Of a DNA stretch of 49,903 nt, positions 9,477 through 26,431 are shown piece by piece (the stretch's first letter is position 1; each line of letters opens with the position of its first letter). Source of the DNA: Candidatus Saccharimonadota bacterium (GTDB lineage: Bacteria > Patescibacteriota > Saccharimonadia > Saccharimonadales > Saccharimonadaceae); contig JAFRGM010000008.1 in assembly GCA_017433855.1 (NCBI GenBank), forward strand, positions 1-49,903, given 5' to 3'. The notes under the pieces were generated by a model that was given only the letters and a program-made list of their open reading frames with translations, was not told where the DNA came from and did no database searches. The position numbers and the translations under genes were made by a program.

Positions 9477-10657
9477 ATTTCGGTAGAATGAAAGATAGTG
9501 GTATCCTTAATGGAATCTGGAAGATAGTTTTTGTCTAGATGAAAACCAGATTCCCATTTTTGGCCTTTGCCGTAGCCAAGGTCGCGCATTAGTTTAGTAG
9601 GGGCGTTGCGTAGCCAAACTGGTACAGGTTCGTTGGGTGTTTTACGTGCGAGGTCTAGTGCGGCGTACCAAGCGTCGGCGGAATCGCGATTTTTGCGTGA
9701 TTTGGATAGGGCAACGCAAGTATGGGCAAGAATCAAACCGGACTCTGGCATACCAACACGTTCAACCGCCTGAAAACAAGCGGTGGCGAGAGAAAGGGCG
9801 CCGTTACCAGCTAACCCAATATCCTCGGAAGCGAAAATTACCATGCGGCGAGCTATAAATTTGGGATCTTCGCCGGCTTCTACCATGCGAGCGAGGTAGT
9901 AAAGGGCGGCATCGGTATCGGAACCGCGCATGGATTTTATAAAAGCTGAGATGGTATCATAGTGATTGTCGCCTTTTTTGTCGTAGCCAGGCATTTTGCG
10001 GCCAGCTGCTTCAATCACAATGTCTCTGGTGATGTGGTCGGATAAAGAGATGGCAAGCTCCAGATCGCCGAGGGCGCTTCTGGCATCACCGCCGGATAAT
10101 TCTGCTAGATAATCTAGAGCATCATCATCTATGGATGTAACGTTTTCGCTCTTGCAGGCGTTTTTGAGGACTTGCAGAATGGCGGATTTGGAGAGAGGGC
10201 TAACGACGACGACGCGCGAGCGAGAAAGAAGTGGGGAAATTACTTCAAAAGAAGGATTCTCGGTGGTGGCACCAATAAGGGTGATAAGGCCAGATTCGAC
10301 GTGGGGTAAAAAGGCGTCCTGCTGGGCTTTGTTGAAACGGTGAATTTCGTCTACAAATAGGACGGTACGGGTTTTGAGATTCCAGTTGGTTTTGGCGCGT
10401 GCAACTACGGCTTCAACATCTTTTTTACCGGCTGTAACAGCGGAGATTTCGATGAAGTCTGCATTAAACTCATGGGCCAAAATACGTGCAAGAGTGGTTT
10501 TGCCGGTGCCGGGAGGTCCCCAAAAAATTAGATTGACCGGCTCGCCTTTTTTGGCAATTTCGGTAAGTATCTTGCCGTCACCGACGATTTCAGATTGGCC
10601 AAGCACATCGCTGAGTTTGGTGGGGCGCATACGCTCCGCAAGTGGCACTCTATTCAT
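9470..10657 (-). CDS. rarA: replication-associated recombination protein RarA (MgsA)
   Basis: The 395-residue AAA+ ATPase of the RarA/MgsA/WRNIP1 family acts at stalled replication forks. It shows the N-terminal [14 protein letters not shown], Walker [10 protein letters not shown], Walker B with [13 protein letters not shown], sensor GATTENPSF, and the C-terminal tetramerisation part ([29 protein letters not shown]). Slightly shorter than the E. coli protein (447). It is leaderless: TATAAT ends 7 nt before the ATG. Confidence 0.95.
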
Positions 10658-10664
10658 AAGGAAT

Positions 10665-10670
10665 ATTATA
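10665..10670 (-). promoter_or_regulatory. -10 box, leaderless rarA
   Basis: TATAAT on the minus strand ends 7 nt upstream of the rarA ATG. Confidence 0.6.
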
Positions 10671-10738
10671 CTAAAAATCTTTACAAAAAGAAATTTTTTA
10701 TGCTATGATTAAGATAAATAATAAAAAGGAGTTATTTT

Positions 10739-11152
10739 ATGTATACATCGTATTTTAGTGAGCCGAGCAACGTAGTAATATCCGATTCAATGACGGCTGC
10801 TGGCGTATTGGGAGTAATTGCGATAATCTTGGCGCTCGTAGGCGGGATTTTGACTTATTTTCTTTTTGTGAGGTCAAATCAAACTCCAAAGAATAAGTTT
10901 TTGGTATGGCTAAAAGATTTTTTGGCATTTAAATCAATGTGGATTGAGCCAATCTTGAAAATATCTTATTACGTTGAAACGATTTTTGTCATTCTATTTT
11001 CGTTTGCGTTGATTAGCGAGAGCTTTTTGTCATTCTTGGCGATGTTGGTTTGTGGCCCAATCGTAGTGCGGTTAGTCTATGAGCTGTTGATGATGTTCAT
11101 AATGATATGGCGCAATTCTCGTGATATTGCTGAGAATACAAAAAAGAAATAA
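10739..11152 (+). CDS. small membrane protein, DUF4282-like
   Basis: The 137-residue protein has a hydrophobic segment near 22-47, a soluble linker, then two closely spaced membrane helices (about 75-95 and 97-125) and a polar basic tail. The part from [16 protein letters not shown] to [10 protein letters not shown] resembles DUF4282 membrane proteins, whose function is unknown; this match is from memory of the pattern. An AAGGAG site lies 7-8 nt before the ATG. Its TAA overlaps the next ATG as TAATG, so the two are translationally coupled. Confidence 0.7.
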
Positions 11153-11376
11153 TGTTAGTAAACGTCCAAGTAAAACCTGGATCAAAGAAGGGGCCGCTTG
11201 TTGAAGCGGCTCTTTCTGGCGAGCTGGTAGTGTATCTAAATGAAAGGCCGCATGACGGAGAGGCCAACAAGGCTTTAATTAAGATGCTAGCGGAATATTT
11301 TGGCGTGGCAAAAAGTTGCGTCGTAATTAAAGCGGGCGAAAAAGCGCGGAAAAAAGTAATAGAAATTATAAAATAA
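11152..11376 (+). CDS. DUF167 / YggU family protein
   Basis: The 74-residue protein matches the DUF167 (YggU) family: [14 protein letters not shown] at the start, [18 protein letters not shown] in the middle and KARKKVIEI at the end. The family is widespread and small with no settled biochemical role. It is coupled to the upstream membrane protein gene by a 1-nt overlap. The hairpin just after it terminates the opposing tRNA operon. Confidence 0.85.
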
Positions 11377-11395
11377 AAAATCTCCCGTTCGGGAG
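11372..11395 (-). terminator. terminator of the Phe-Lys-Val tRNA operon
   Basis: The stem CTCCC / GGGAG with a 4-nt loop is followed on the minus strand by ATTTTTTATTTT. Its T run on the plus strand is poor, so it mainly serves the leftward tRNA unit. Confidence 0.75.
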
Positions 11396-11416
11396 TCTTG
11401 GTAAATTCTTGGTTTT

Positions 11417-11493
11417 TGGTGGGCGATAGAGGAGTCGAACCTCTGACCTTGTCTACGTCAAAGACACGCTCTAGCCAACTGAGCTAACCGCCC
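11417..11493 (-). tRNA. tRNA-Val (anticodon GAC)
   Basis: Cloverleaf with acceptor GGGCGGT / ATCGCCC, A73, encoded CCA, anticodon stem TGTCT/AGACA and loop TTGACGT, giving GAC. Last gene of the Phe-Lys-Val unit, 12 nt after tRNA-Lys. Confidence 0.93.
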
Positions 11494-11505
11494 AAGTATA
11501 GGGAT

Positions 11506-11582
11506 TGGTGAGTCGGGAGGGGCTCGAACCCTCGACACCGGGCTTAAAAGGCCCGTGCTCTAACCAGCTGAGCTACCGACCC
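11506..11582 (-). tRNA. tRNA-Lys (anticodon TTT)
   Basis: Cloverleaf with acceptor GGGTCGG / CCGACTC, A73, encoded CCA, anticodon stem GGGCC/AGCCC region and loop CTTTTAA, giving TTT. It lies between the tRNA-Phe 3' copy and tRNA-Val. Confidence 0.94.
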
Positions 11583-11593
11583 AATTGTTAATA

Positions 11594-11609
11594 TGGCTTG
11601 GTGGTTCCG
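11594..11609 (-). repeat. partial copy of the tRNA-Phe 3' end
   Basis: These 16 bases are identical to 11638-11653: acceptor 3' strand CGGAACC, A73, CCA and the AGCCA that follows. Just before it on the minus strand is GGCTCCG, which can pair with CGGAACC except for one C-A mismatch. The copy could therefore form a 7-bp acceptor-like minihelix ending in ACCA. It lies between tRNA-Phe and tRNA-Lys in one operon. Confidence 0.85.
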
Positions 11610-11642
11610 TTTACGAAGTTCCGGAGCCAGCAAGTTTTGGCT

Positions 11643-11718
11643 TGGTGGTTCCGACTGGACTTGAACCAGTGACACAAGGCTCTTCAGGCCTCTGCTCTAC
11701 CAACTGAGCTACAGAACC
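11643..11718 (-). tRNA. tRNA-Phe (anticodon GAA)
   Basis: Cloverleaf with acceptor GGTTCTG / CGGAACC, A73, encoded CCA, anticodon stem GAGGC/GCCTT and loop CTGAAGA, giving GAA. Position 37 is G rather than the usual A. First gene of the Phe-Lys-Val unit. Confidence 0.93.
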
Positions 11719-11728
11719 ATCTTCATCT

Positions 11729-11734
11729 ATTATA
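11729..11734 (-). promoter_or_regulatory. -10 box for the Phe-Lys-Val tRNA operon
   Basis: TATAAT on the minus strand, 10 nt upstream of the tRNA-Phe 5' end and divergent from the hisS promoter. Confidence 0.6.
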
Positions 11735-11746
11735 GCACATTTATGA

Positions 11747-11752
11747 TATAAT
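11747..11752 (+). promoter_or_regulatory. -10 box, leaderless hisS
   Basis: TATAAT ends 7 nt before the hisS ATG at 11760. Confidence 0.6.
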
Positions 11753-11759
11753 TGGAAGT

Positions 11760-13031
11760 ATGAAAAGAATAAATACATCCCCAATCTCAGGCATGCAGGA
11801 ATTATTGCCTGCAGCACAAGCTACTTTTAATGATTTAAAAGATAAGATTACAGCTACTTACAAAAAACACGGATATCTAAATATTGAAACGCCAATCATT
11901 GATAGATGCGAGATTTTGCTAGCAAAGGCTGGTGGCGATACTGAAAAACAGATTTATAAGGTGGTTAAGACTGCAGAAGCGAGTGAAGGTGCAGACCAGG
12001 CATTGCGTTTTGATCATACAGTGCCGCTAGCACGTTATGTGGTGGAGCATGAAAATGATTTGCAATTTCCATTCAAGGTTACACAAGTGGGGCGCAATTT
12101 TCGTGGTGAAAGAGCACAAAAAGGTAGATTTCGTGAGTTTTACCAGTGCGACGTGGATGTGATTGGTCGTGGCGAATTGCCACTATACTATGATGCGGAT
12201 GCGATTTCAACATTGTTGGATGCTTTTGATAGTTTTAATTTGGGTACGCCAGTAGTGGCAAGGATTAATAACCGCAAGATTTTGTCTGGTCTGTTAGCGG
12301 GATTAAATTTGCAAGAGAAATCTGGTGACATTTTTGACATTATAGACCATTCCGAAAAAGTGCCGGCAGAAAAAACTGAAGAGGCTTTGGTGGAAATTGG
12401 TTTAAACGAAAACGAAAAAGCTAAGGTTTTGACATTTATGAGCCTAGCGGGGGAACGCGATAAAGTGGTAGAGGGTCTCAAAGGTCTTGGCGTAGAAAAT
12501 GCCATGATGGATGAGGGTATCGAGGAGCTTGATATTGTGATGGGGCTACTTGAGAATGATGGTCGTGCGGAGCAGATACGTGCTGATATGAAAATTGTGC
12601 GTGGGCTAGATTATTACACGGGGACGGTGTTTGAATTTAATTTGCCAGAATATCCTGGTGTAGGTTCGGTATGTGGCGGTGGCCGCTATGAGAACCTTGC
12701 GGAATACTTTACCGAGCAAAAACTGCCTGGCGTGGGCGGGTCGATTGGCCTTACTCGTTTGTTCTATGTGCTAAATGCGAATGGGCTTGTGAAGGATGCA
12801 ACGATTCAGCCGGTAGACTATGCAATTGTGCCGATTTCTGCAGACGAAATGTCTTTTGCTTTGAAGGTGGCGGCAGAATTGCGTGCGGCAGGTAGTAGTG
12901 TAACTATCGTGGGGACGGACAAAAAGCTGGGCGATAAATTAAAATATGCGGCGCAGGTGGCGAAGAAGGGTATCGTCCTGGGTGAGAGTGAAGCGCAAAC
13001 TGGCAAGTACGAAATAAAAGAATTTAAGTAG
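11760..13031 (+). CDS. hisS: histidyl-tRNA synthetase
   Basis: The 423-residue class II synthetase charges tRNA-His. Motif 1 region GYLNIETPIID is followed by the HisRS motif 2 region QVGRNFRGERAQKGRFREFYQCDVDVIG. The histidine-A signature RGLDYYTGTVFEF and motif 3 GGGRYENL / GVGGSIGLTRLF come next, then a C-terminal anticodon-binding domain (PVDYAIVPIS onward). Normal length. Leaderless start. The glycosyltransferase at 13033 begins 1 nt after its stop, so it probably heads a four-gene transcript. Confidence 0.96.
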   Translation: MKRINTSPISGMQELLPAAQATFNDLKDKITATYKKHGYLNIETPIIDRCEILLAKAGGDTEKQIYKVVKTAEASEGADQALRFDHTVPLARYVVEHENDLQFPFKVTQVGRNFRGERAQKGRFREFYQCDVDVIGRGELPLYYDADAISTLLDAFDSFNLGTPVVARINNRKILSGLLAGLNLQEKSGDIFDIIDHSEKVPAEKTEEALVEIGLNENEKAKVLTFMSLAGERDKVVEGLKGLGVENAMMDEGIEELDIVMGLLENDGRAEQIRADMKIVRGLDYYTGTVFEFNLPEYPGVGSVCGGGRYENLAEYFTEQKLPGVGGSIGLTRLFYVLNANGLVKDATIQPVDYAIVPISADEMSFALKVAAELRAAGSSVTIVGTDKKLGDKLKYAAQVAKKGIVLGESEAQTGKYEIKEFK

Positions 13032-18410: not shown

Positions 18411-20410
<2,000 letters not shown>

Positions 20411-20411
<1 letters not shown>

Positions 20412-20441
20412 AAAGAGCCCCGGCTATGATAGCCGGGGCTT
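20411..20441 (-). terminator. intrinsic terminator of the 20447-21460 gene
   Basis: The 11-bp perfect stem AGCCCCGGCTA / TAGCCGGGGCT with loop TGA is followed on the minus strand by CTCTTTTT. On the plus strand the T run after ligA is weak. Confidence 0.8.
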
Positions 20442-20446
20442 AGCGT

Positions 20447-21460
20447 TTAATAGGGACTGCGATTGACGTTGCCAGCCGTATCCCGATAAGGGAATGTATA
20501 GTTAGTGCTGGCGTTATCCTTAACGCTTCTGTAATAAAGATTCCCGCTGGAATCTTTATAGTAGAAGCAGTAGTTGGACGGCAACGTCTGTCCGCAGTTG
20601 GCGATGCCGCTACTTCTGGCCTCGATCCGGAAGAAGATCTCGTAGGCCAGCTTGACGTCGTCCTCCGAGAATTTGGCGTTGGACTTATAGTCGGGATAGT
20701 ACTGGATGAGATTCGCGAAAGTATCGCTGCCCTTCGCGTTCATGATGTTCCAGTATGTATCTGCAAGGCTCTTGTAGTTTCCGGAGGGGTTCAAAGAGCG
20801 GCCAAAGCGCGCCAGGTATTCGGCGTCGCTACGGGAAGCGGCGGTTTCAACACCGTAAATACGCCCAGCATAGAGCTTAACGCCACTGTAGCTATAGTTG
20901 CTACTACTTAAATTGGCATTCCGCTCTGTCCAGGCATTTTTATATTTGGTGTTGTCGTTCTTGTTGTCTTTCTCTTTACCACCGTAGTCGTCGTAGTAGG
21001 TATTGCCGAGATATGTGCCGTTTTTCAAAATACGGTCATTTTCGGCGGCTGTGGCCCAAATCTGCGAAGTCCCGCTACGGCGGTAGAAAGTGCCGCTTTG
21101 GGTTTGGTACCAGATGTAGCCACTGTAGCGAAAGGCAATGCCGTTGGAGGTATTGCCGCCGTCGCTGTAGTAGCTACCGATGATGTCCGGGGTCAAGTAG
21201 TACTTCTGGCCATCCGTGGCATCGTAGAAGTAGCACTTGGCCATATCTTTGCCGTCGGCCATATCCCAGCCGCGTTGGTTGATTTTGACGAAAGCCGATT
21301 TCTCTGCGATGTTGGCATCACGATAGATTTCGGCGGCGGCGTGAAAATGGTCTTTGAGGGATACGCTGTCCACGTAATTGTAGGCAGTGGCGGTGCCGAC
21401 CGAGATGGCACCCAGGAAGAATGTGGCAATAAGAGACAAAACGATAATGGCTTTTTTCAT
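20447..21460 (-). CDS. secreted protein of unknown function, probably very highly expressed
   Basis: The 337-residue protein begins with a signal peptide, MKKAIIVLSLIATFFLGAISVGTATA, with likely cleavage near residue 26. The mature part is rich in Tyr, Ser, Asn and Gly, with short aromatic repeats (GYIWYQTQSGTFYRR, SSGNLYYRS) and four cysteines. No family is recognised. Expression signals are exceptional for this window: TTGACA-17-TATAAT, AAGGAGGT 7 nt before the ATG, and a strong terminator. Codon choice differs from neighbours, with more GC and C-ending codons. It may be a major surface or envelope protein, or recently transferred DNA; high expression explains the signals better. Confidence 0.85.
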   Translation of the reverse strand: MKKAIIVLSLIATFFLGAISVGTATAYNYVDSVSLKDHFHAAAEIYRDANIAEKSAFVKINQRGWDMADGKDMAKCYFYDATDGQKYYLTPDIIGSYYSDGGNTSNGIAFRYSGYIWYQTQSGTFYRRSGTSQIWATAAENDRILKNGTYLGNTYYDDYGGKEKDNKNDNTKYKNAWTERNANLSSSNYSYSGVKLYAGRIYGVETAASRSDAEYLARFGRSLNPSGNYKSLADTYWNIMNAKGSDTFANLIQYYPDYKSNAKFSEDDVKLAYEIFFRIEARSSGIANCGQTLPSNYCFYYKDSSGNLYYRSVKDNASTNYTFPYRDTAGNVNRSPY

Positions 21461-21467
21461 GATAATG

Positions 21468-21475
21468 ACCTCCTT
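21468..21475 (-). promoter_or_regulatory. full-length Shine-Dalgarno site AAGGAGGT
   Basis: The minus strand has AAGGAGGT 7 nt before the ATG at 21460, a near-complete match to the anti-SD. It is the strongest ribosome binding site in the window. Confidence 0.8.
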
Positions 21476-21513
21476 AAAATAATTTGGATTATCTATTCAA
21501 AAGCGACGAAGCC

Positions 21514-21558
21514 CTAATTAAACGCTAAAAAATTAAGGTACGTCGCAAAAAGCGTCAT
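21514..21558 (-). other. possible 14-codon leader frame
   Basis: An ATG 6 nt after the -10 box opens a frame MTLFATYLNFLAFN ending in TAG, upstream of the secreted-protein gene. Its spacing equals that of the leaderless genes. It may be chance, or a leader peptide. Confidence 0.35.
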
Positions 21559-21565
21559 ACCTTAA
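21527..21565 (-). terminator. hairpin plus T6 overlapping the next promoter's start
   Basis: On the minus strand TTAAGGTA (21565-21558) and TACCTTAA (21540-21533) form an 8-bp stem with CGC/GCG pairs inside, followed directly by TTTTTT. A transcript coming from tRNA-Glu would contain the whole hairpin and should end here. A transcript starting at the promoter at 21565-21593 would begin near 21558, inside or after the 5' arm, and would escape. It could also be a DNA operator. Confidence 0.6.
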
Positions 21566-21593
21566 TTATATCACACAAAATGAAAAATGTCAA
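21565..21593 (-). promoter_or_regulatory. perfect sigma-70-type promoter
   Basis: TTGACA (21593-21588) and TATAAT (21570-21565) are both exact consensus matches separated by 17 bp on the minus strand. It drives the secreted-protein gene at 20447-21460 and starts 4 nt after the last tRNA-Glu 3' copy. Confidence 0.85.
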
Positions 21594-21597
21594 TAGC

Positions 21598-21667
21598 TGG
21601 TAGTCGCGGCGGGATGGGTTATCCCTTGCTCCTGGTAGTCGCGGCGGGATGAAGAATCCCTTGCTCC
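21598..21667 (-). repeat. two tandem 35-bp copies of the tRNA-Glu 3' end
   Basis: Two 35-bp units lie directly downstream of tRNA-Glu. On the minus strand each has GGAGCAAGGGAT, a variable 5-nt loop (TCTTC or AACCC), and ATCCCGCCGCGACTACCA, which is the T-stem/acceptor 3' strand and CCA of tRNA-Glu. GGGAT and ATCCC pair around the variable loop. The units are identical except for that loop. With the tRNA itself the CCA ends recur every 35 nt at 21598, 21633 and 21668. Confidence 0.95.
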
Positions 21668-21744
21668 TGGTAGTCGCGGCGGGATTCGAACCCGCGATTG
21701 CATGGATGAAAACCATGTGTCCTAGGCCTCTAGACGACGCGACC
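21668..21744 (-). tRNA. tRNA-Glu (anticodon TTC)
   Basis: Cloverleaf with acceptor GGTCGCG / CGCGACT (G1-U72), A73, encoded CCA, anticodon stem CATGG/CCATG, loop TTTTCAT, giving TTC. It is followed by two tandem copies of its own 3' end. Confidence 0.95.
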
Positions 21745-21752
21745 ACAGTGCT

Positions 21753-21758
21753 ATTATA
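21753..21758 (-). promoter_or_regulatory. -10 box for tRNA-Glu
   Basis: TATAAT on the minus strand, 8 nt upstream of the tRNA and 10 nt after the stop codon of the membrane-protein gene. Confidence 0.6.
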
Positions 21759-21768
21759 GCAAATAATT

Positions 21769-22290
21769 TCAAAATTCGCAAGAGCAATGGTAATCTATGC
21801 GGTAATCTTGGCGCCCGAAAGGCTCTAAGGGGTAGATTTTGATGTAGGTGTTTTCGAGATCGCAGTAGGTAGAGAGTGTGGAAGTGGCGCCAGAGTGACG
21901 GCCATTGTCAAAATGAAGCAATTGGTTAAGTGTGACTTTGGCAAAACCTCTGGTTAAGTATTTTTCCATGATTTCTGGTATTGATGTATTTGAGGTGGCG
22001 TTACTACCGATTTGGTCGTAGAAATAATTTTCGTAATAATCTGTAGAGATGGCTTCGACTTGGTGAGTAATGACGCGCTCTGGGGTAGAGAGGGTAGTAA
22101 AAAGAATAGTTAAGATGACGGACATCATGGCCAGAACGATGACAGCTAAAATAGTATGCCGAGAACGGCGATGGATTTTGCGACTGGTATCCTGGGACTT
22201 GGCGATACGGGAACTACGGATACGATGGCGCGAACTATGCATGGCGGCGCTGGAAGTCTTGGCTAGTTTTTGTTTTTTGATAGTAACCAT
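21769..22290 (-). CDS. membrane-anchored protein of unknown function
   Basis: The 173-residue protein has a strongly basic N-terminal cytoplasmic part (residues 1-45, many Lys/Arg/Ser). One membrane helix follows (HTILAVIVLAMMSVILTILF, about 45-65), then an external domain of about 105 residues with three cysteines near the C-terminus. No family is recognised. TAAAAT ends 6 nt before the ATG, so it is probably leaderless. The external domain is too small and plain to assign a role; it could be an envelope or division-associated protein. Confidence 0.7.
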   Translation of the reverse strand: MVTIKKQKLAKTSSAAMHSSRHRIRSSRIAKSQDTSRKIHRRSRHTILAVIVLAMMSVILTILFTTLSTPERVITHQVEAISTDYYENYFYDQIGSNATSNTSIPEIMEKYLTRGFAKVTLNQLLHFDNGRHSGATSTLSTYCDLENTYIKIYPLEPFGRQDYRIDYHCSCEF

Positions 22291-22350: not shown

Positions 22351-23781
22351 ATGAGTAAACTGTTTAAACGGACAAAGATATTGGCCACGATTGGGCCGGC
22401 TACGATGACGCCGGAAATGGTGGAAAAAGTAATAATGACTGGGGCGAATGGTTGTAGATTGAACTGTTCGCACGGTACTAACGAAGAGCGCAGTGAGCAG
22501 ATTAAGTGGATACGTGCAGCGGCCGAGAAAAAAGGCAGGAGCGTGGCAATACTATGGGATTTGCAGGGGCCGAAGATACGGCTAGGGACAATTCTAAATA
22601 ATCATTTAGATTTGGCCGAGGGAGACGAGCTAGTGTTAGAAGCGAGGCCAGACTATGAGCATGATGGCGGCAAGACGGTGCCAGTGCAGTATAATTTGGC
22701 GGCGAAGTGTAAGGTGGGGGAGCCGCTGTCGATGTTTGATGGCAAAGTTCGCGCCGAAGTGACGGAAATTGTAAGTGAGACGGCCATAAAGATTCGTATT
22801 CTTAATGACGGTTTTATTATGTCTAAGAAGGGATTGAATCTACCTGATACGGACTTTGGTGGTGATATTTTGACCAAGAAAGATTTGACGGATATTGAGT
22901 ATGGTGCAAAAGAGGATATTGATTATGTATCGCTATCTTTTGTGCAGTCGGCGGCGGATATTTTGAAATTAAAACAGCTACTATTGGCGCACGGGTCTAC
23001 CGCTAAGGTGGTGGCAAAGATTGAGACGAAGCGGGCGATTGCTTCGGACGAGCATCTTGAGGAAATAGTGAAGGCGGCTGATGGTGTAATGGTGGCGAGG
23101 GGCGATATGGCGTCTGAGGCGGGGGCGGAAGTGGTGCCGATTGTGCAGCGCAAGTTGATTGCGATGTGTCGGCGATACGGAAAACTATGTATTGTGGCGA
23201 CGCAGATGATGTCGTCGATGGTGGATGCGCCGGAGCCGACGCGTGCGGAGGTGTCTGATGTGGCGACGGCTGTAGTGCAAGGGGCTGATGTGGTGATGCT
23301 GTCGGATGAAACTGCGAATGGTAAATATCCGCTAGAAACAATTGCGGAGATGAAAAAAGTGATTTTGTATACGCAAAACCATTCTAGGTTGGCACCACTG
23401 AATCGCCCGGAAGACAACGAAAGGGTAATGGATGCGATTTCGGCGTCGGCGGCACGCTTGGCGGAGAAAATCGACGCGGATGTAGTGGTATGTCAGACGG
23501 CTTCTGGCGCTACGGCAATGGCAATGGCGGCGGAAAGGCCAAATTTGCCGATTATTTCGGTAACGCCGAATAAGCGGGTGGCAAATCAGCTGGCACTGCT
23601 ATATGCAAACTCGGCATTTGTGAGGCCATATTCGACTGAATTTGGTTATGATTTGGCGGTAGAGTTAAAGGCTTCGGGATATTTGCAAACGCGTGAAGGT
23701 AGAGATGATTTGCTGGCGGTAATTGTATCTGGCGATAAGGATAAAGTGGGGACTGATACAATTAGAGTGCGTACAATCTAA
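22351..23781 (+). CDS. pyk: pyruvate kinase
   Basis: The 476-residue enzyme converts phosphoenolpyruvate and ADP to pyruvate and ATP. It shows the N-terminal RTKILATIGPAT, NGCRLNCSHG, the LWDLQGPKIRLG loop and the B domain. KIETKRA, GVMVARGDMASE and CIVATQMMSSMVDAPEPTRAEVSDVATAV follow, then a C-terminal domain. Length is normal (about 470). In this reduced metabolism it is one of the few ATP-yielding steps. It converges with pgk, the other substrate-level phosphorylation gene, across a bidirectional terminator. Confidence 0.97.
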   Translation: MSKLFKRTKILATIGPATMTPEMVEKVIMTGANGCRLNCSHGTNEERSEQIKWIRAAAEKKGRSVAILWDLQGPKIRLGTILNNHLDLAEGDELVLEARPDYEHDGGKTVPVQYNLAAKCKVGEPLSMFDGKVRAEVTEIVSETAIKIRILNDGFIMSKKGLNLPDTDFGGDILTKKDLTDIEYGAKEDIDYVSLSFVQSAADILKLKQLLLAHGSTAKVVAKIETKRAIASDEHLEEIVKAADGVMVARGDMASEAGAEVVPIVQRKLIAMCRRYGKLCIVATQMMSSMVDAPEPTRAEVSDVATAVVQGADVVMLSDETANGKYPLETIAEMKKVILYTQNHSRLAPLNRPEDNERVMDAISASAARLAEKIDADVVVCQTASGATAMAMAAERPNLPIISVTPNKRVANQLALLYANSAFVRPYSTEFGYDLAVELKASGYLQTREGRDDLLAVIVSGDKDKVGTDTIRVRTI

Positions 23782-24880: not shown

Positions 24881-26431
24881 TTAAATGCCGGTGAGTGGGA
24901 CGATGTCGGCGCCGAGATGACGGAGCCTGGCGGCAAAATCTTGGTAGCCGCGATTGATAGGGTAGACATTGCGAAGGATTGAAATGCCAGGGGCAGCAAG
25001 CATGCCAATTAAGACGACTACGGCAGGACGAAGTGCTTGTGGAGCGACTAATTCAGCGGCGTGCCAGTTGGTAGGACCTTCGACATAGAGGCGATGGGCA
25101 TCGAGGAGCTCGACTTTAACGTTGAGATTGGCAAGTTCGGTGGTATAGATGGCGCGATTTTCAAAAACCCAGTCATGGATCATAGTGCGGCCCTCGGCGA
25201 CGGCGGCAATCACAGAAAAGAAAGGTAAATTGTCGATGTTAAGACCAGGGAAAGGCATGGGGTGAATCTTGTCAACTGGGGCGACAAGGTGAGACTTGAG
25301 GATTTTGAGGTCAATAAGACGAGTGCGGCCATTGGCGGAGCTATACTCTGGAGATTTTTCAAAACGAGCACCCATGTTTTTGAGGACTTCGAGCTCAATC
25401 TCTAGGAATTCGATGGGGGCACGGAGTAAGGTGATTTCCGAATTGGTGACAAGGGCGGCAGCAATGAAACTCATGGCCTCGATGGGGTCTTCGGAGAGGT
25501 TGTATTCGACATCTTCGTTGATGGTGGAGCGGCCACGCACTACGAGCGTGGTAGTGCCGATGCCGGAGATTTTGACACCGAGTTTTTCAAGGAAAAAGCA
25601 CATATCTTGAACCATGTAATTAGGGGAAGCGCCGACGATAGTAGTGCGGCCGGGGGCAAGGGCAGCAGCCATGAGGACGTTTTCGGTGACAGTGTCGCCA
25701 CGCTCGGTTAAGACAATGTAGCGATCGGTGTATTTGTGAAGGGTGTTTTGATTGACGTGAACTTCGTAGAAACCGCTGTTTTTTTCGGCATCGACTTCAA
25801 GACCGAAAGATTTGAGGGCTTGCATATGCGGCTCAACAGTGCGCGTACCAAGTGAACAGCCACCGGCGTACGGAAGCTCAAAACTTTCAAATTTATGAAG
25901 CAGTGGGCCTAAAAACATGATAATCGAGCGAGTGCGACGTGCAGCATCGATGTCTAATTCGTTGAGTTTTAATTCGCGTGGTGATATAATTTCTAGGTCG
26001 CGGTGGCGGTTTTGCCAGTGACATTTTACGCCGATAGACTCTAAAACTTCAATGATACGAAAAACTTCTTCGATGCGGGCTACTTTATGTAAAATGGTGC
26101 GTCCAGAGTTCAAAAGAGCAGCACAAAGGATGCCGACTGCGGCATTTTTGGAAGTATTGATGGTGATTTCGCCAGACAATTCGCGGCCGCCACGGATACG
26201 AAAACTTTGAGAAACGGAATCATTGATAGAGAGAATTTGGTTGCCGAGAGCCTCGGATAACTTCTTAACCATCTCAAGGGAAATATTTTGACCGCCTTTT
26301 TCAATGCGGTGAATGGCCGACTGGCTGGTGCCTGCGGCTTCAGCGAGCTCACCTTGTGTCCAGCCTTTTTCGAGACGCATTTGCTCGATGGTTTCACCAA
26401 TAACTTGTTGGTAGGTTTTTGATTTTTTCAT
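24881..26431 (-). CDS. murA: UDP-GlcNAc 1-carboxyvinyltransferase (MurA) with N-terminal XRE HTH domain
   Basis: The 516-residue protein is a fusion. Residues about 8-67 form an XRE/Cro helix-turn-helix (ETIEQMRLEKGWTQGELAEAAGTSQSAIHRIEKG). Residues about 75-516 are a complete MurA, which catalyses the first committed peptidoglycan step, adding enolpyruvate from PEP to UDP-GlcNAc. It keeps SKNAA (Lys95), the loop GGCSLGTR with the PEP-binding Cys192, and the late IHDWVFENR with the catalytic Asp. The linker is only about 8 residues. The HTH suggests DNA binding and perhaps self-regulation; no operator could be identified. Leaderless start. Confidence 0.93.
   Translation of the reverse strand: MKKSKTYQQVIGETIEQMRLEKGWTQGELAEAAGTSQSAIHRIEKGGQNISLEMVKKLSEALGNQILSINDSVSQSFRIRGGRELSGEITINTSKNAAVGILCAALLNSGRTILHKVARIEEVFRIIEVLESIGVKCHWQNRHRDLEIISPRELKLNELDIDAARRTRSIIMFLGPLLHKFESFELPYAGGCSLGTRTVEPHMQALKSFGLEVDAEKNSGFYEVHVNQNTLHKYTDRYIVLTERGDTVTENVLMAAALAPGRTTIVGASPNYMVQDMCFFLEKLGVKISGIGTTTLVVRGRSTINEDVEYNLSEDPIEAMSFIAAALVTNSEITLLRAPIEFLEIELEVLKNMGARFEKSPEYSSANGRTRLIDLKILKSHLVAPVDKIHPMPFPGLNIDNLPFFSVIAAVAEGRTMIHDWVFENRAIYTTELANLNVKVELLDAHRLYVEGPTNWHAAELVAPQALRPAVVVLIGMLAAPGISILRNVYPINRGYQDFAARLRHLGADIVPLTGI

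Follow-up and report, generated by a model that had tools for sequence, protein, structure and literature searches.

A secreted SleB/CwlJ-like protein without the conserved glutamate and a motif-linked complementarity between mRNA leader and stop codon in a genus of Saccharibacteria

The window, that is, the whole stretch of DNA that was analysed (49,903 nucleotides), contains on its reverse strand a gene for a secreted protein, which lies next to ligA, a tRNA-Glu gene and pyk (Table 1). The gene is furnished with pronounced expression signals. Its promoter is the sole site on either strand of the window that matches TTGACA-17-TATAAT at 12 of 12 positions. Its Shine-Dalgarno (SD) match, TAAGGAGGT, spans 9 nt and is the longest among the 39 genes of the window, five of which have a match of at least 6 nt. 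The terminator stem (20440-20416, reverse strand) comprises 11 bp with 8 GC, is followed by a T tail and ranks first of 18 candidates in the 19 kb scanned, where terminator-like sites are not in excess (18 versus 15.4 in shuffles). These results bear out the first-pass annotation, which had described a secreted product with strong expression signals on the basis of a consensus promoter, a strong SD at 7-nt spacing, a strong terminator and a signal peptide, the last of which is a signal-peptide-like N-terminus recognized by eye. The same annotation held most neighbours to be leaderless; a crude rule classes 17 of the 39 genes as leaderless, so leaderless genes are present but "most" is too strong. 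A near-consensus TTGAC...TGnTATAAT promoter is seen in most of 46 family leaders and is thus a family trait rather than a peculiarity of the window copy.

Table 1. Features of the locus, in window coordinates
Feature	Position	Strand	Remark
ligA	18414..20411	+	convergent neighbour, position conserved
Intrinsic terminator AGCCCCGGCTATCATAGCCGGGGCT + T tail	20411..20440	-	
X', ATTAAACGCTAA	20440..20451	-	overlaps stop codon, directly before terminator
CDS, secreted protein of 337 aa	20447..21460	-	
C-terminal degenerate SleB/CwlJ-like domain	20450..20848	-	~aa 205-337
N-terminal aromatic-rich module	20861..21382	-	~aa 27-200, boundary approximate; common to L002-L006; no Pfam family
Likely Sec signal peptide	21383..21460	-	aa 1-26, TATA end before Y; assigned by eye
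Shine-Dalgarno AAGGAGGT	21468..21475	-	7 nt before ATG, outside X
X, TTAGCGTTTAAT	21517..21528	-	just after GTACCTTAA, complementary to X'
Leader motif GTACCTTAA (GTACNTTAA)	21533..21541	-	genus-wide promoter-proximal motif
Inverted repeat AATTAAGGTATGACGC-TTTTT-GCGACGTACCTTAATT, then T run	21531..21567	-	overlaps -10 end and transcript start
Promoter TTGACA-17-TATAAT	21565..21593	-	TG preceding -10
tRNA-Glu	21668..21744	-	neighbour
pyk (pyruvate kinase)	22351..23781	+	conserved neighbour

If transcription starts 6-7 nt past the -10 element, only the inner part of the inverted repeat at the promoter would be present in the RNA. A switch between leader hairpin 1 and an antiterminator formed with the downstream repeat can be drawn in the window and is kept in L002; it is a weak possibility, because hairpin 1 may partly precede the transcription start and is absent from some leaders. 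In Rfam 15, only tRNA reaches the gathering score within window positions 20300-21900 and in a set of 11 loci. Two side observations concern the surroundings of the gene. The tRNA-Glu 3' end is repeated three times with a 35-nt period between the tRNA and the promoter (21597-21701), which resembles an integration or duplication scar, and positions 24881-26431 encode a protein of the EPSP-synthase fold (MurA-like) with an HTH_3 domain at its N-terminus.

Relatives of the protein are almost confined to the same Saccharibacteria genus. A single-sequence search finds them in 23 of 394 family genomes, and a profile of the window group matches 33 of 174 genus genomes, several through the hydrolase-like domain only. 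Two relatives come from Saccharibacteria metagenome-assembled genomes, one of them from goat reticulum, and the genome of the window itself holds one further relative, the hydrolase-type L090. One match (L021) was dropped as false, being pilin-like by eye, and L004 and L005 each have a second piece, L026 and L029 respectively. The gene is adjoined by ligA and/or pyk in L002-L009, L039-L042, L060 and L061 (the last two being L005 and L006 again, by sequence), in several cases together with a 173-aa neighbour, and by tRNA-Glu in L001, L004, L007, L008 and L040-L042; L027 lies elsewhere, after tRNA-Ser. Because ligA and/or pyk flank the group genes across genus genomes, L027 excepted, the window group mostly represents a single, vertically inherited ligA/tRNA-Glu/pyk locus. 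The proteins of the group are only 21-31% identical, compared with 74-79% for ligA across the same loci. Such divergent orthologs at one locus in other genomes of the genus disfavour recent transfer, which the first-pass annotation had named as the alternative. In three sister-genus members (L015, L105 and L108), no ATG, GTG or TTG stands at the expected SD distance; the frame starts with CTTATTTTA... and possibly uses ATT or another rare start codon.

Do the C-ending codons of the gene reflect expression? The C fraction in pooled two-fold NNY codons is 0.67 in the window gene, the highest C-ending fraction of the 39 genes, versus 0.40 in the other reverse-strand genes, 0.22 in the forward-strand genes and 0.37 in the ribosomal region, which lies on the forward strand. 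GC skew of the forward strand is mostly +0.2 to +0.35. Since the window gene is encoded against the GC skew, its C-ending codons are partly a strand asymmetry (a lagging-strand effect). The C-ending bias that the first-pass annotation counted among the expression signals is real and extreme (67% versus 37% in the ribosomal region), but expression alone does not account for it; strand and expression may both contribute, and the codon signal by itself does not prove abundance. As a separate observation, the strand that carries the gene has a negative flank GC skew at all tested family loci (18, plus L060 and L061) and is opposite to that of the neighbours.

The window protein is rich in Tyr, Ala, Ser, Asn and Gly (Y 37, A 34, S 33, N 28, G 26), in agreement with the Tyr/Asn/Ser/Gly-rich mature part noted from the first reading. 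It has no direct family match in Pfam, NCBIfam or PHROG and none in the PDB by sequence; in the Pfam search it does not reach the PF07486 cut-off, and its sole match is Sas10 (E 0.18). Relatives L012, L015 and L105, by comparison, pass the cut-off of PF07486 (Hydrolase_2), and L018 matches below it. A profile-profile comparison (hhalign) of nine window-group proteins with 13 relatives gives a probability of 99.3 and an E value of 2.4e-20 over 126 columns, and the profile of the relatives matches SleB structures 4fet (2.5e-8) and 4f55 (4.4e-7). The earlier statement that the protein belongs to no recognized family thus holds for direct searches and fails for the comparison with SleB/CwlJ relatives. 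The GES motif of SleB aligns to a Glu that is invariant in 13 of 13 relatives (reference alignment A3) and that we take to be catalytic. This position is Leu223 in the window protein and, by eye, Tyr in the 12 loci L002-L009 and L039-L042; L027 keeps Glu. The window protein has likewise lost the QF and HN positions that are conserved in the relatives, and it retains the core residues A217, W237, N241, R278, G290 and P294. Structure models are weak (pLDDT 44 and 61, predicted with three sequences), and the absence of SleB from the fold-search matches of these low-confidence models carries no weight against a SleB fold. Choline-binding-like repeats in the N-terminal module were considered and dropped for want of Pfam support.

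Thus, by sequence comparison, the C-terminal half is a SleB/CwlJ-like (PF07486) domain that evolves fast, is degenerate and lacks the invariant Glu, and the protein is a likely pseudoenzyme. The domain is homologous to SleB/CwlJ hydrolases (PF07486; 4fet, 4f55) by profile comparison and would descend from wall hydrolases of this type, but differs from them in carrying Leu at the place of the conserved Glu, and the whole protein differs in having no direct Pfam match. Because the conserved Glu is lost, the domain probably binds or decorates a wall, either that of the cell itself or that of a host bacterium, rather than cutting it. The domain might still be active on the wall by means of a catalytic residue at another position, in keeping with the several core residues that are retained; we regard this as quite unlikely, given the loss of the invariant Glu and of the QF and HN positions. 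Also improbable is the proposal of the first-pass annotation that the product dominates among the proteins of the cell surface or envelope. Although the promoter and SD are the strongest in the window and the C-ending codon fraction exceeds that of the ribosomal region, the codon bias is partly strand-driven, the group is absent from most genus genomes, and the homology indicates a degenerate domain of cell-wall-hydrolase type. The analysis brought up no sign of an S-layer, anchor or adhesin function. A fast-evolving likely pseudoenzyme would be a candidate for host-specific wall recognition. Elsewhere in the same genome, two large proteins with signal-peptide-like starts are encoded within the ribosomal protein cluster (L103:8690-10285 and 10488-12188, C11).

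In addition to its protein product, the gene has an unusual relation between its two ends. A leader segment, X, is perfectly complementary over 12 nt, and over a longer stretch if mismatches are allowed, to a segment at the stop codon, X'; both lie between the predicted promoter and terminator, and X ends ~40 nt upstream of the SD. With one test for all genes, in which 120 nt of leader are compared with positions -12..+50 around the stop, a perfect complement of 10-14 nt is found in 13 of 13 window-group genes, compared with means of 6.1-7.0 for shuffled leaders; the matches are reached by 0 of 200 leader shuffles in 11 genes and by 2 of 200 for L004 and L006. The four loci L039-L042, added after the idea of pairing had arisen, all fit, although the start chosen downstream of X and the leader windows hand-set around X favour L039 and L042. 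The leader-stop match of the target (12) is the longest in any of the 39 genes of the window; an AT-rich match of 11 comes next, and the remaining values are at most 9. The own duplex energy of the window group is reached by 0 of 20,000 re-pairings; 30 other family loci give no signal (8,975 of 20,000). Within these 30 loci, L010 (13 nt), L015 (11 nt) and L028 (10 nt) have X within the leader, and L018 and L081 reach 10 nt, but through T-rich stretches upstream of the promoter. Sister-genus members added later again show matches (14 nt in L105, 13 nt in L108, 12 pairs including G.U in L106 and a weaker match in L107), and L015 together with L105-L108 scores like the window group (4 of 5 at p<=0.05). 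Little pairing is found in 28 other family members of the window's genus, mostly hydrolase-like (4 of 28 at p<=0.05), and none in the paralog L090. L009 came without a leader. In L042, X and the main gene are separated by a small upstream ORF.

The two segments covary. In 12 orthologs (10 distinct rows), both sides change in 10 of 10 paired columns, and 96% of cells are paired, a figure biased upward by the choice of 10-nt windows around the match; 0 of 5,000 row shuffles reach it. Less subject to this bias are the uniform leader-stop test, the duplex-energy re-pairing, the scores of the family and sister-genus members and the genus-wide comparisons given below. The columns were counted ungapped by script because MAFFT shifted the joined rows. 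Wobble counts, taken to tell RNA from DNA pairing, are 19 for G.U and 14 for A.C.

X follows a leader motif. Of 45 family leaders, 20 contain ACNTTAA (shuffles average 1.4 and reach 5 at most); L017 is left out of this count and L088 out of all leader counts, because their start or promoter was unclear. The pattern TGNTATAATN{8,36}GTACNTTAA, which places GTACNTTAA after TGNTATAAT at a motif-to-promoter spacing of 8-36 nt, yields about 120 matches, with 47 of 60 genus genomes positive and one control match; in 115 genomes that belong to the order but not to the genus, it yields seven matches and one control match. GTACNTTAA beside strong promoters is therefore a genus-wide leader motif. Ten motif genes that were scanned encode mutually unrelated products (GGDEF, SPFH/Band_7, ThyX, HD and unknowns). 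Leadered genes without GTACNTTAA often carry GCACATTAA, GTTCTTTACA or ACATTTACA before the SD, and the motif may extend beyond the pattern used. The long leaders of L126, L138, L170, L171 and L205 have self-complementary stretches after GTACNTTAA (GATCGCAGA ... TCTGCGATC in L170/L171) and no Rfam match.

The motif predicts the complementarity. The test set consisted of 110 loci (30 plus 80 fetched) minus three of the hydrolase family and four unusable ones, leaving 103 genes whose proteins were scanned in part for the hydrolase domain; the 80 loci were picked from the listed matches, a few of which were omitted, before the gene ends were seen. Their own leader-stop score is 20.94 versus 17.73 for permuted pairs (z 11.2, 0 of 5,000; dereplicated n=100, z 10.9) and also exceeds scores against windows within the same CDS (mean 16.2). 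The 53 leadered genes without the motif (70 loci, 57 usable, four with ACNTTAA removed) show no leader-stop excess (z -0.2). The signal is present in genes whose stop is followed by T5 (z 10.0, n=70, versus 0.0 in controls, n=20) and in those without a T run (z 4.5 versus -0.3), and direct repeats show no excess (z 0.8). Among own pairs, 18 of 100 combine an X close to the end of the motif with an X' close to the stop; among cross pairs, 171 of 9,900 do so. About a quarter of the motif genes (26 of 103) reach a strong match (score >=24), which 4.7% of cross pairs do; weak matches in the others may reflect short pairings, operons that end further on or wrong gene calls. The motif genes L094 (6 nt) and L098 (5 nt) of the window's own genome show no pairing. 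Between the flotillin-like L158/L209 and L190, pairing is retained and the letters differ.

What could such complementarity do? We propose, as the best explanation and one that we hold on balance to be probable, that the gene encodes a Glu-less, SleB/CwlJ-derived secreted protein and that X-X' pairing joins the ends of its mRNA and protects it in the manner of Bacillus subtilis hbs. The gene would belong to a genus-wide class of mRNAs with a strong promoter, the leader motif GTACNTTAA, a gene-specific X and an X' at or just past the stop before the terminator. X and X' most likely form a duplex that joins the two ends of the mRNA; pairing of mRNA ends is the simplest account of a complementarity that is inverted, specific to each gene and covarying, goes with the motif at variable spacing and falls within the predicted transcript. 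Since X lies upstream of the SD and not on it, the closure would mainly protect the message, and ribosomes arriving at the stop codon would melt X', tying the lifetime of the message to its translation. The motif itself would have a reader, either protein or RNA. A bolder reading, which we offer tentatively and consider rather doubtful, is that the genus runs a dedicated mRNA-closure system, with GTACNTTAA as the entry motif and a gene-specific pairing, by which a message senses its own translation and is stabilized or silenced. If true, regulation throughout the genus would include an additional level with a code of its own, in genomes that contain many leaderless-looking genes.

Other roles can be imagined for the same complementarity. 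X' and the terminator might be set free as a small RNA derived from the 3'UTR, which would pair in trans with X and exert negative feedback, as do OppZ and CarZ. Of the 21 pairings that score >=24 and have a T run in the tested interval, 16 have an X' that stops short of this run, and every gene has its own X even within one genome (L003 versus L027 in G089; L004 versus L028 in G346), both of which would suit such an RNA; the window X, however, covers neither the SD nor the start, and the processed RNA is a prediction, which leaves this model unlikely. Pairing might instead repress, as in icaR, by turning the closed mRNA into a substrate of RNase III or by blocking initiation. X abuts or overlaps the SD in a few genes (L028, L120), but its distance from the SD in the window gene and the better fit of a strong promoter and SD with high output make repression rather improbable. 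A further reading places the function of X and X' in DNA, as inverted repeats that form the ends of a small mobile cassette or looped repressor operators. The repeats do flank the CDS, the wobble counts are compatible with DNA and tRNA-end repeats adjoin the window gene. Promoter and terminator, however, lie outside the repeats, the window group occupies one conserved ligA-pyk locus apart from L027, the motif-to-promoter spacing varies, no direct repeats are found, and X differs among genes of one genome, unlike the sites of a shared regulator; we judge a role in DNA very improbable. Integron-like cassettes were set aside because of the promoter outside X and the conserved locus, and a DNA operator because X is unrelated between two pairing genes of one genome.

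Motif-linked leader-stop complementarity of mRNA is a new finding, and a literature search of partial coverage returned no report of the GTACNTTAA motif or of 5'-3' pairing in Saccharibacteria. In a review (PMC7821165), bacterial 5'-3' mRNA pairing is known from the single cases of RNAIII, icaR and hbs, and the question is raised of whether it extends to other genes. Here, pairing across ~100 genes is predicted by a sequence motif and shows covariation from ortholog to ortholog, which opens the question to genome-wide tests in very small bacteria of a candidate phylum.

Among the known systems, the putative motif-linked closure most resembles B. subtilis hbs, in which, as the review relates, a 14-nt pairing of the 5' and 3' UTRs protects against RNase (Braun 2017, via PMC7821165). 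The window gene likewise has complementary 5' and 3' segments inside one transcript of predicted ends, and its 12-nt X/X' is similar in length to the hbs pairing, but hbs is one gene, whereas the present case is a class of ~100 motif-linked genes of one genus recognized from sequence. The icaR mRNA of Staphylococcus aureus also shows 5'-3' complementarity within one molecule; its UTRs pair at the SD and form an RNase III substrate (PMC3868564). In the window gene, by contrast, the 3' segment pairs away from the SD (X 21517-21528, SD 21468-21475), and X' lies at the stop codon with no long 3' UTR; this position of X favours hbs-like closure over icaR-like blocking. The OppZ and CarZ RNAs of Vibrio cholerae, described as autoregulatory 3'UTR-derived small RNAs, share with X' a 3'-end sequence complementary to their own transcript (PMC7398697), but the complement in the Saccharibacteria genes lies in the leader, upstream of the SD.
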